This document shows, one piece after another, positions 2,331 through 6,045 of a stretch of 61,309 bases of DNA. The notes under the pieces are model-generated. The model was not told the origin of the DNA. It did not search any database and was given only the letters and a program-made list of their open reading frames with translations. The position numbers and the translations under genes are program-made. The stretch's first letter is position 1, and each line of letters starts with the position of its first letter. The DNA lies in assembly GCA_040905805.1 (NCBI GenBank), contig JBBDQS010000114.1, positions 1-61,309 of the forward strand. Reading direction: 5' to 3'. Origin of the DNA: Egibacteraceae bacterium. GTDB taxonomy: Bacteria > Actinomycetota > Nitriliruptoria > Euzebyales > Egibacteraceae.

Positions 2331-3062
2331 CTAGCGCCGCTGGCGGCGCCGCGCGATGACGCGCTCGGTGGCGCCCATGGCCACGGCCAGGACGGCGAGG
2401 ATGCCCGCCGCGATCCGGCGGCCTCCCATCGGTGGATCGGGGTGTCGGCGGCCGGCTTCGATCACCGCCAGCGAATCCGCGTGCACGACCGTGACCTCCC
2501 GCGATCCCGGATCCACACGGCGGAACACACCGACGACCTCGATCCGGTCACCGCGGACGTGCGGCCCCCCGACGGTGGTGATCTCAGCGGCCAGTCCGGG
2601 TGGGAGGCGCACACCGACGCCCGTGTTGGCGCCCTGGTACCGGCGGTGACCGGGCAGCGGTCCGAGCGGCCCCGCGTACACGTCGTCGTTGACCTGCACC
2701 CACGTGCCGTCCCGGCGCGGCAGCAGCCCCCCGATCGCCTCCCCCTGGTAGCGCACGATGCGCCGGTCGTAGTGCTCCGGGCAGTTGAGCAGCTCGGTGG
2801 AGGACACGTCCACGGGCTCCCCCCGCGGGACGATGGTCGCCGGGGGGCGCTCGCGGGCTTCGTCCGGTGTCGGCTCGGGGCAGTCCAGGGGCACGCGCGG
2901 GTCACCGGCGGCCGCCCCGTCCTCCACGGGCGGGTGACCCCGCGAGGGGGGGTGGCGCAACCCCTCGGCCAGCGCGACGAGCCCGGCCAGCAACGCCAGC
3001 GCGACTGCGGTGCCGGCCAGCACGCGCCGCCGGCGGACGGGTTCGCGGTGGTCGCGGCTCAT
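2331..3062 (-). CDS. Membrane-anchored protein of unknown function, last gene of the Trk operon
   Basis: 243 aa with a basic N-terminus, a transmembrane segment at about residues 14-30 (VLAGTAVALALLAGLVALAE), an extracytoplasmic domain, and a second hydrophobic segment near the C-terminus (IAAGILAVLAVAMGATE) ending in an Arg-rich tail. The central part (RRIVRYQGEAIG ... GTWVQVNDDVY ... VRGDRIEVVGVFRRVDPGSREV) has a rhythm of short beta strands that looks OB-fold-like; this is inference. Its ATG overlaps the trkH TGA (ATGA), so it is co-translated with the K+ transporter. Two cysteines flank the domain start. I do not recognise a named family. Confidence 0.7.
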   Translation of the reverse strand: MSRDHREPVRRRRVLAGTAVALALLAGLVALAEGLRHPPSRGHPPVEDGAAAGDPRVPLDCPEPTPDEARERPPATIVPRGEPVDVSSTELLNCPEHYDRRIVRYQGEAIGGLLPRRDGTWVQVNDDVYAGPLGPLPGHRRYQGANTGVGVRLPPGLAAEITTVGGPHVRGDRIEVVGVFRRVDPGSREVTVVHADSLAVIEAGRRHPDPPMGGRRIAAGILAVLAVAMGATERVIARRRQRR

Positions 3063-4561
3063 GTGCGCGCCCGGAACATCGAGAGCAGGTAGCCGCCCAG
3101 CGCGAAGACCGCGAGGAACTCCAGGCGGCCGACCAGCATCTGCGCGATGTAGACGACCTTGAGGGGCCACTCCAGCGCGGGTCGCACGATGCCGACGGAC
3201 AACCCGCCGGTGGCGGCCGCCGCCGTGCTCTCGAACAGGCTGAGGGTGAGCTCGTAGCCGTAGAACAGCCCGAGGATCCCCCCGCCCAGGTAGAGCATCA
3301 GGTAGAGCAGCAGGATCGTGGCGGCCCCGCGCACGAGGTCGTCGCGCAGGATCCGGCGCGTGGTCGAGTGGAAGCTCTCGACCACCACGGCGTTCTCGGG
3401 CAGGAGCACCTTGCGCAGGTCGCGCCGCAGGCCCTTCAGCAGCACCCCGATGCGGATCGCCTTGATGCCACCCGCCGTCGACCCGGCCATGCCCCCGAGG
3501 GCCATGGCCGTCACCAGCATCGCCGGCGCCAGCGCCCCCCAGTCCGTCACGAGCAGGCGCTCGGGCACGGTCGTCAGGCCTGTGGTCGTGTGCGCGCTGA
3601 TCGTCTGGAAGAAGCCGACGCGGAACAGGTCGGCGAAACCGGTGTGGGTGCCGGCTCGGGCGAGACCGGTGGCCAGTATCGAGAAGATGACGACGATCGA
3701 CAGGGCCAGGGTGCGGGTCTCCAGGTTGCGGGTCAGCTCGCGGCGACGTCCCAGCCACAGCTGGTAGTGCAATGCGAAGCTGAACGCCCCGGCGACCATC
3801 AGGACCATCAGGGCGACCTCGACCGGCTGGGACCGGTAGAAGGCCGCGCTGGCCGACTGGGGCGCGAAACCCGCGGTGTGGAAGGCGGTCATGAACAGCA
3901 GGGCGGCGTGGTAGAGCGCCGTGGCGGCCTCGAGCCCGCTGCGCCACAGCAGCAACCACAGCACGCTCGTGCCGATCAGCCCGTAGGCGACGACCACCCG
4001 CGCGACGAAGCGGGCGGTGTGGACGACGTTGGGCAGGATCCGTTCCTTGTGCCCCTCGCCGGTGTAGAGGGTGCCGATCGCGGCGCCGGCGCTCGCGAAG
4101 ATGGTGAGCACCACGAGGATGATCCCCTGTCCGCCCAGGACGTGCAGGAGATGGCGCCAGAGGTTCATGCTGCGGGACAGGTGGTCGAGGTCGTTCACGA
4201 GGGTGAGGCCGACGGTGGCGAACCCGCTCATCCCCTCGAAGTACGCGTCGAGGTAGGAGGTGTAGTGGCCGGACAGCAGCAGCGGGACCGCGGCGAAGAC
4301 CGGCGCGACGATCCACGCCCCGCCGACCACGGCCAGGCCGCGGGCGGCGTCCAGCGTGGTGCGGGTGCGCAGGAGCTGGCTGGCCGCGCCGACGATGATC
4401 GCCAGCGAGGCGCCGATCAGGAACGCGAAGGCGTCGTTGGCCTCCCCCGCGGCCACCGCTACCACGAACGGCACGAGCATGGCCGCCCCCAGCAGGTACA
4501 CCACCTTGCCGGTGTAGAGGCCGATGACCCGCAGGTCGTCGGGGGAGGGTCGGAAGAGCAT
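3059..4561 (-). CDS. trkH: TrkH-type potassium uptake channel subunit
   Basis: 500-aa integral membrane protein of the Trk/Ktr/HKT superfamily, which conducts K+ (or Na+) when gated by cytoplasmic TrkA rings. Repeated membrane-pore-membrane units carry the selectivity-filter loops, recognisable as MSGFATVGLTL, AFHTAGFAPQS, HTTTGLTTVPE and AAATGGLSVG. The intramembrane-loop segment GGMAGSTAGGIKAIRI is also present. Length fits TrkH (about 480-510). Its start lies 3 nt after the stop of a 45-aa membrane protein, and its stop overlaps the next gene. Two TrkA-type genes lie upstream in the same operon, so a complete regulated uptake system is encoded. Confidence 0.95.
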   Translation of the reverse strand: MLFRPSPDDLRVIGLYTGKVVYLLGAAMLVPFVVAVAAGEANDAFAFLIGASLAIIVGAASQLLRTRTTLDAARGLAVVGGAWIVAPVFAAVPLLLSGHYTSYLDAYFEGMSGFATVGLTLVNDLDHLSRSMNLWRHLLHVLGGQGIILVVLTIFASAGAAIGTLYTGEGHKERILPNVVHTARFVARVVVAYGLIGTSVLWLLLWRSGLEAATALYHAALLFMTAFHTAGFAPQSASAAFYRSQPVEVALMVLMVAGAFSFALHYQLWLGRRRELTRNLETRTLALSIVVIFSILATGLARAGTHTGFADLFRVGFFQTISAHTTTGLTTVPERLLVTDWGALAPAMLVTAMALGGMAGSTAGGIKAIRIGVLLKGLRRDLRKVLLPENAVVVESFHSTTRRILRDDLVRGAATILLLYLMLYLGGGILGLFYGYELTLSLFESTAAAATGGLSVGIVRPALEWPLKVVYIAQMLVGRLEFLAVFALGGYLLSMFRART

Positions 4562-4564
4562 CGC

Positions 4565-4702
4565 CTAGTAGAGCAGTGAGACGATCAGGGCGATCAGCCC
4601 CGCGACGGCGGCCAGACCGACGGTGGCGGCGGTCACCAGCCCGATACCGACCAGGCCTCCCCGGATCAGCGACTCGGCGCTCTGGCTCTGCCGGCGGCGC
4701 AT
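4565..4702 (-). CDS. 45-aa single-span membrane protein inside the Trk operon
   Basis: ATG at 4702 to TAG at 4565 encodes 45 residues: a basic, polar head MRRRQSQSAESLIRGG followed by about 28 almost entirely hydrophobic residues ending LIALIVSLLY at the stop. It starts 4 nt after the upstream trkA stop and ends 3 nt before trkH. The frame therefore fills a gap that would otherwise be an odd 145-nt hole in a tightly packed operon. The head/tail charge pattern predicts an N-in single transmembrane helix. By analogy with KdpF-like small subunits it could assist TrkH assembly or gating, but this is inference; I know of no described family that it matches. Confidence 0.72.
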   Translation of the reverse strand: MRRRQSQSAESLIRGGLVGIGLVTAATVGLAAVAGLIALIVSLLY

Positions 4703-4706
4703 CGCG

Positions 4707-5378
4707 CTATTGCCCCTCGTCGTCGAGGACTGCGGTGCGGAGCTCGTCCTCCAGCTCCGGCGTGGTCAGGGCGATCACCCGGTCCTCGGGCTCCAAGCGG
4801 GTATCGCCGCGTGGGATGATGATCTTGTCCCCGGGGCCCCGGAAGATGCAGACGAGCACGGACTGCTCCGGCAGGTGCAGGTCGGCGACGCTCTGCCCGG
4901 GGGAGTCCGCGGTGGACGGGATGTCGATCTCCACGAGGTTGACCTTGCCGCGTTGGAGCGTGGCCAGGTGGATCAGGTCCCCGACGGTCACCTCCTCGCG
5001 GATGAGCCGGGAGATGAGCGTGGTCGTGGACACCGCCTCGATGCCCATGCGCGCGAAGATCTCCTCGTTGCGGGGGCTGTTGACCCGCGCGATCGCGCGG
5101 GGCACCTCGAAGGACGTCAAGGCCAGCTGGCACGCCACGAAGTTGTCGTCGTCGTCGCCGGTGGTCGCCGCGAACACGTCGGCGCGCTCCGGGCGAGCCT
5201 GCTCCAGGTAGCGGACGTCGCAGGCGTCGCCGTGGATCACGAGCAGATCGTGGTCGCGCAGCAGCTGCTCGCAGCGGCGCTCGACCTTCTCGATGATGGT
5301 GACCGTGTGCCCTTCGGCGAGCAGCTCGACGGCGATGAACCGCCCGACCTTACCGCCACCGGCGATGACCACGTACAC
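4707..5378 (-). CDS. trkA: TrkA-family K+ channel regulatory protein (second copy)
   Basis: 223-aa RCK protein. The N-terminal Rossmann domain binds NAD(H)/ATP (MYVVIAGGGKVGRFIAVELL, with the acidic VTIIEK strand end), and a TrkA-C domain occupies the C-terminal 80 residues (ADLHLPEQSVLVCIFRGPGD). Such proteins form the cytoplasmic gating ring on TrkH. The GTG at 5378 lies 4 nt after the stop of the first trkA copy. The two consecutive single-RCK genes resemble the CeoB/CeoC pair of other actinobacteria and may form a hetero-ring. Confidence 0.93.
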   Translation of the reverse strand: MYVVIAGGGKVGRFIAVELLAEGHTVTIIEKVERRCEQLLRDHDLLVIHGDACDVRYLEQARPERADVFAATTGDDDDNFVACQLALTSFEVPRAIARVNSPRNEEIFARMGIEAVSTTTLISRLIREEVTVGDLIHLATLQRGKVNLVEIDIPSTADSPGQSVADLHLPEQSVLVCIFRGPGDKIIIPRGDTRLEPEDRVIALTTPELEDELRTAVLDDEGQ

Positions 5379-5382
5379 GCGG

Positions 5383-6045
5383 CTACAGGTCCTCGGCGAA
5401 GGGGTGCTCGACCAGGCGCCGCAGCTTCTTGTGGGCCCCCCGACCGACCGCCGCCACGACCAGGTCGTCGGTCTGCAACCGGTCGTCAGGCGCGGGGATG
5501 CGCGGACGCAGGCCGCGCTGCACCGCCGCGACCCGCACGTTGCCGCTGGCTTCGAGCTCTGCGACCGTCACCCCGTGCCCCCCCGCGTGGACCCGCATCT
5601 CCACCACCTCCACGTCGCTCTCGAACCCCACGTGCAGCGGGAACGTGCCGGCCTGCAGCTCGTTCATGATCGCCTTGGCCACGAGCCGGGTTCCCGAGAC
5701 GTAGTGCACGCCGATCTTGCGATAGGACTGCTCCCGCTCCGGGTTGAACAGGCGGGCGACGGTCTTGCGCACGCCGAACAGCTCCTTGGCGATCTCGACC
5801 GACATGAGGTTGGCGTTGTCCAGGTCGGTGACAGCGATGAGCGCGTGCGCGTGCTCGATGCCCGCCTGGATGAGCGCGTCCTTGTCGGTGATGTCGGCGG
5901 TGACCGTCTCGCCGTTGAAGGTCGATCCGATCCGGTCGAAGGCCGCCTCGGACATGTCGAGCACGACGACATCGTGCCCGTCGTCGGACAGGCGGTCGGC
6001 GAGCTCCGCCCCGACCCGTCCGCAGCCTCCGATGATCACATGCAT
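5383..6045 (-). CDS. trkA: TrkA-family K+ channel regulatory protein (first copy)
   Basis: 220-aa RCK protein with GxGxxG motif IIGGCGRVGAELADRL, acidic VVLD strand end and a C-terminal TrkA-C domain. First gene of the five-gene Trk operon. An upstream in-frame ATG at 6063 exists, but the ATG at 6045 is preferred: the protein then begins directly at the first beta strand, and a CATACT hexamer lies 8 nt before it. The 42-bp gap to ispH holds divergent promoters for both genes. Confidence 0.93.
   Translation of the reverse strand: MHVIIGGCGRVGAELADRLSDDGHDVVVLDMSEAAFDRIGSTFNGETVTADITDKDALIQAGIEHAHALIAVTDLDNANLMSVEIAKELFGVRKTVARLFNPEREQSYRKIGVHYVSGTRLVAKAIMNELQAGTFPLHVGFESDVEVVEMRVHAGGHGVTVAELEASGNVRVAAVQRGLRPRIPAPDDRLQTDDLVVAAVGRGAHKKLRRLVEHPFAEDL

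Follow-up and report, generated by a model that had tools for sequence, protein, structure and literature searches.

Organization of the trk locus

In the window, by which we mean the whole analysed stretch of 61,309 nucleotides, an operon with the order trkA1-trkA2-sp-trkH-(243-aa gene) encodes a potassium channel of the Trk type, where sp is a short ORF that encodes a small protein. Trk channels are a main route of potassium uptake in bacteria, and the host genome is a 3.6-Mb bin, in 166 contigs, from the Nitriliruptoria (Actinomycetota). The relevant features are:

5383-6045, reverse strand: trkA1, the other single-RCK regulator, with its ATG at 6045 (GTG 6063 is the start in the ORF list)
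4707-5378, reverse strand: trkA2, single-RCK regulator with TrkA_N and TrkA_C (Pfam)
4565-4702, reverse strand: sp, ATG to TAG, small protein of 45 aa with a single predicted helix; family Gly19 at 4646-4648 and Val23 at 4634-4636
3059-4561, reverse strand: trkH, channel subunit of 500 aa, aligned over its full length with Vibrio TrkH (PF02386)
2331-3062, reverse strand: uncharacterised gene of 243 aa, in ATGA overlap with the trkH stop and with a hydrophobic stretch at both ends

The product of the small ORF is MRRRQSQSAESLIRGGLVGIGLVTAATVGLAAVAGLIALIVSLLY. An earlier, sequence-only reading had described an ATG-to-TAG frame fitted between trkA and trkH, and our coordinates reproduce it: 4 nt separate the trkA2 stop, ending at 4707, from the ORF start at 4702, and 3 nt separate the stop of the ORF, ending at 4565, from the trkH ATG at 4561. 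Its GC content by codon position (0.73/0.51/0.91) resembles that of trkH (0.68/0.47/0.97), and no Shine-Dalgarno core was found within 20 nt of trkH. As detailed below, the ORF is a real, conserved gene.

The deduced TrkH matches PF02386 (E 4e-40) and the TrkH structures 3PJZ and 4J9U (E about 1e-57), and its residues 10-490 align to residues 3-478 of Vibrio TrkH; thus, no TrkH helix is missing. The two adjacent and separate single-RCK genes, trkA1 and trkA2, make this a two-regulator Trk system. The closest solved structures include Vibrio TrkA for both products, together with TM1088B for that of trkA2 and TM1088A for that of trkA1. Thermotoga maritima likewise has two separate TrkA proteins, TM1088A and TM1088B, next to the TrkH TM1089 (PMC4380455), and the window regulators are of this same two-protein type, although TM1088A has only TrkA_N (PMC4380455), compared with the 220-aa product of trkA1; the portion of that source consulted does not mention a small membrane protein for the T. 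maritima system. The Vibrio TrkA-TrkH complex (4J9U; PMC6987127) shares the TrkH family and the regulation by RCK domains, but its TrkA is a single protein with tandem RCK domains, in place of two proteins with one RCK each.

The slot upstream of trkH is occupied in distant bacteria

We searched for homologues by using the window TrkH as a query in related genomes and then reading the gap before each trkH gene. Within Nitriliruptoria, nearly every trkA-trkA-trkH locus contained a small ORF whose product combines a basic head with one hydrophobic helix, and the slot was also filled in other classes of the phylum as well as in Omnitrophota, Coriobacteriia, Acidimicrobiia, Clostridia, Erysipelotrichaceae, a Cryosericum isolate and a Hadarchaeum bin. 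The first automatic examination yielded candidates for 136 of 150 TrkH matches, duplicate loci included, from which we removed false picks corresponding to the C-terminus of a gene of the 243-aa type upstream of tandem trkH copies, or to the ends of trkA and trkH frames. The curated set comprises 103 distinct small-protein sequences from 107 loci.

Chance does not account for this occupancy. Among the 89 loci with trkA located 60-260 nt upstream of trkH, 69 contained a hydrophobic ORF that spans 70% or more of the gap, versus 0.15 expected from dinucleotide-preserving shuffles, and the reverse strand of the same 89 gaps yielded no spanning hydrophobic ORF. Most of the remaining 20 gaps also contained a small hydrophobic ORF, with less coverage or with its start inside trkA. 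The position of the ORF is tightly constrained, with its stop lying at most 15 nt ahead of, or at most 4 nt beyond, the start of trkH in 95 of the 103 sequences; there is a 4-nt overlap with the trkH start in 20 of them, and in 29 the start of the ORF overlaps the trkA stop by 4 nt. Both these stop positions and the overlaps with trkA make translational coupling likely.

Judged from these comparisons, the ORFs in the slot are a family of small proteins that belongs to this TrkH subfamily and is spread over distant bacteria. The sequence-only reading had taken a lack of positional homologues as grounds for discarding the gene and had implied a search among actinobacterial genomes; positional homologues exist far beyond Actinobacteria, so that scope was too narrow and the family is not specific to this group. 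A profile built from the small proteins of Nitriliruptoria (class profile A1) fails to reach across the phylum, since outside the class it retrieved only matches with E>1e-6, mostly within long unrelated frames.

The small protein is under purifying selection

Nei-Gojobori estimates of dN/dS ranged from 0.18 to 0.63 in the 12 pairs with finite dS. For the window gene and its relative from the same genus, dN/dS was 0.32, with a significant excess of synonymous changes (one-sided p = 0.002), and the combination of six clade-independent pairs gave p = 2e-18. Constraint on the small protein is weaker than that on TrkH and TrkA. By this codon-level evidence, the small protein is under purifying selection, and a Ka/Ks near 1 in close relatives, which had been named beforehand as the outcome that would speak against the gene, is not what we observed.

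A conserved glycine and a single predicted helix mark the family

Sequence identity across phyla is very low. Members share their position before trkH, a single helix, a near-invariant Gly and a Glu (or Val) four residues later. The members from Nitriliruptoria can be aligned with hardly any gaps within the helix, and Gly19 does not vary among them. In the alignment of the sequences with Glu from outside the class (Glu-type), all 44 rows contain the Gly plus the Glu four residues later. In Nitriliruptoria, the position of this Glu is mostly Val, as with Val23 of the window protein, which occupies the place of Glu in most relatives; the members from Acidimicrobiia keep the Glu and have Phe at the Gly position, and Eggerthellaceae-type loci also lack the Glu. 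These last loci (L144, L148-L151), with a small ORF devoid of Glu and no trkA in the available stretch, represent a second apparent loss of Glu besides that of Nitriliruptoria. We found no clear basic partner among TrkH columns changing with the loss of Glu, in a comparison that is confounded by kinship. The pattern MRRR...SLLY, initially put forward as a family signature, turned out to be limited to the genus and its near kin; the distinctive mark is instead one invariant Gly, accompanied in most lineages by a Glu four residues on, which the window protein has lost (V23).

The Nitriliruptoria and Glu-type profiles were colinear over 41 columns, with a score of 25.6, compared to a maximum of 16.2 in 200 column shuffles and to 10.3 with the reversed profile. 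Numbered from the Gly, the positions most conserved among the Glu-type sequences (0, +4, +7, +11, +15 or +16, and +18 or +19) lie on one helix face; the conservation moment was significant in this set (p = 0.03) and not significant in the Nitriliruptoria set (p = 0.12). AlphaFold2 confidently predicts a single continuous helix for residues 9-44 of the window protein, with a mean pLDDT of 87.5. The mean net charge is higher in the N-terminal (+2.0) than in the C-terminal flank (+0.4) and, following the positive-inside rule, this suggests that the N-terminus is inside.

The small gene follows trkH, not trkA

We examined 61 genomes of the class Nitriliruptoria, searched both ways, for the co-occurrence of the small gene and trkH. 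Class profile A1 matched 46 of the 49 genomes containing this TrkH and none of the 12 lacking it (Fisher p = 3e-10), and the three misses (G031, G033 and G038) are due to a single genus, in which the ORFs of the slot do not reach the score cut-off applied. The small gene also adjoins trkH in two loci where trkA is downstream (L090 and L110) and in others with no trkA in the available stretch (L083, L121, L122, L126, L133, L144 and L148-L151), and additional trkH copies come with their own small gene (L025, L026, L039 and L092). The small gene, then, follows trkH and not trkA, which supports the proposal of the sequence-only reading that it encodes a small partner of TrkH; the part of that proposal concerning assembly or gating is one that we can only infer.

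This distribution bears on whether the protein could anchor the TrkA1/TrkA2 ring to the membrane, or regulate it, instead of being a TrkH subunit. Such a role would agree with its gene being mostly directly after trkA2, often overlapping the trkA2 stop, and with several orphan trkH copies without trkA that also lack the small gene; nevertheless, we consider it rather unlikely, because the small gene abuts trkH even when trkA is downstream or not near, and because it has been duplicated together with trkH alone.

The association has its exceptions. TrkH copies at most 33% identical to that of the window, of the classical type, lack a small gene of this kind in the slot, and any trkA at these loci often directly adjoins trkH; the plasmid records listed contained only TrkH of this type (at most 33% identity) and no annotated example of the small gene. 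Likewise, the small gene is missing from the orphan trkH copies L032-L036 and the tandem copies L093, L095 and L097, mostly without trkA, and from L088, which has both trkA genes and where trkA2 runs directly into trkH. These small-gene-less copies indicate that the small protein is not indispensable to every TrkH. The window genome itself contains two further TrkH genes (G000:C141:5122-6621 and G000:C136:17288-18787; 61% and 57% identity), with no small hydrophobic ORF upstream of either.

It is also conceivable that the ORF works as a translational coupling or leader device, handing ribosomes over to trkH while the peptide itself is inert. Compatible with this are the start of the window trkH, 3 nt after the small stop and lacking a Shine-Dalgarno core, and the overlap of the ORF with both neighbours in many relatives. 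We nonetheless regard an inert peptide as clearly improbable, because its amino acid sequence is under purifying selection, the Gly, the Glu and the conserved helix face are kept across phyla, and trkA could couple straight to trkH, as in L088 and beside the classical TrkH. Even less probable, in our opinion, is an independent small protein, for instance one acting in membrane stress or resembling a toxin, that shares nothing with Trk but the operon. In its favour, hydrophobic peptides of this length are frequent, and the weak matches of the profile at other places in the genomes lie within long, unrelated frames; against it, this TrkH subfamily and the small gene occur together almost without fail in the class, and the position is fixed across phyla.

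Comparison with known families

The window protein did not match any Pfam family; more generally, searches in Pfam, NCBIfam and PHROG revealed scattered matches of single members and no family common to them, and no PDB chain was convincingly similar. In the open-access literature we found no description of a small TrkH-linked protein, and a prior mention in subscription papers or preprints is possible. This well studied type of Trk system probably has a small subunit that is still missing from the protein-family libraries.

One candidate for its identity was KdpF (PF09604), and the predicted helix of residues 9-44 agrees with the single short membrane helix typical of that protein. We rejected it on the basis of the model, the position and the profile comparison. 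The Potass_KdpF model matched neither the window protein nor any of 65 relatives (E<=0.1), and it gave no match at E<=0.01 at the small gene of the window genome and its relatives. The small gene lies between trkA and trkH, and not with kdpA in a kdp operon. The comparison of both profiles was not significant (probability of 3% over 4 columns), and the KdpF-type sequences of the same class occur at other loci and contain a conserved Tyr-Leu and an acidic C-terminal motif, both absent from the small family. The likeness resides in a short hydrophobic helix tied to a channel subunit of the same superfamily, since KdpA and TrkH are both SKT members (PMC6255902). KdpF is the single-span subunit of KdpFABC and stabilises the complex (Gassel 1999, cited in PMC6255902). 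AcrZ and similar small transmembrane modulators bind a large transporter and change its activity (PMC7267776), but AcrZ has a different partner from the small Trk protein and the parallel is mechanistic only.

We likewise rejected a TrkH fragment: a split-off piece such as the N-terminal helix would suit the place directly before trkH and an in-frame fusion found in one bin (L124, see below), but we give it hardly any credence, because the window TrkH is complete, with residues 3 to 478 of Vibrio TrkH covered and nothing missing, hhalign finds no similarity of the small family to any part of TrkH, and that single bin may reflect a deletion.

A putative accessory subunit of TrkH

The close link with trkH, together with the length of the single helix and its conserved face, suggests a helix that packs on TrkH. 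The reading that we favour, and consider probable, is that of an accessory subunit bound to TrkH in the two-regulator Trk channel, working in a manner similar to KdpF. The small protein would be made in step with TrkA and TrkH, probably through translational coupling, and would form one helix bound to TrkH within the membrane, the basic N-terminus being cytoplasmic and the C-terminus outside. The candidate docking surface is the conserved face, composed of Gly at 0, Glu/Val at +4, Leu/Ile at +11, a small residue at +15, Ile/Leu at +18 and a small residue at +19. Once packed, the helix might stabilise the channel or tune its opening by the TrkA1/TrkA2 ring, much as KdpF acts on KdpA, a distant member of the TrkH superfamily, and with no detectable homology to KdpF. 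In Vibrio, opening driven by TrkA involves changes at the TrkH-TrkA contacts and at the TrkH dimer interface (PMC6987127), and the Gly and Glu, near the cytoplasmic side, could influence either of them.

A broader, tentative version, which we would not expect to hold in full, is that two-regulator Trk systems, bacterial and perhaps some archaeal, are four-protein complexes of TrkA1, TrkA2, TrkH and the helix, where the Gly/Glu face on the cytoplasmic side would set how the ring opens the pore; such an ancient gating subunit, if so, would have been overlooked because its gene is so short. To our knowledge, the cytosolic ring is the only part of the two-regulator Trk with a solved structure. Should a small subunit be part of the system, earlier reconstitution and structural work carried out without it would be incomplete and, if the proposal is true, a missing part would be gained for understanding how two unlike RCK proteins drive TrkH. 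It would also offer a compact case of a KdpF-like subunit, apparently of separate origin, for another channel of the same superfamily.

Other features of trkH loci

In an actinobacterial bin (L124:3854-4010), the small protein and a TrkH without roughly its first ten residues are fused into one reading frame; this was observed in a single bin and may be due to a deletion or to an assembly error. The 243-aa protein encoded after trkH in the window (2331-3062) had no Pfam family above the cut-off, and genes of its type recur beside trkH, often between tandem copies (L006, L014-L016, L018, L024, L051, L093, L095, L097 and L115).
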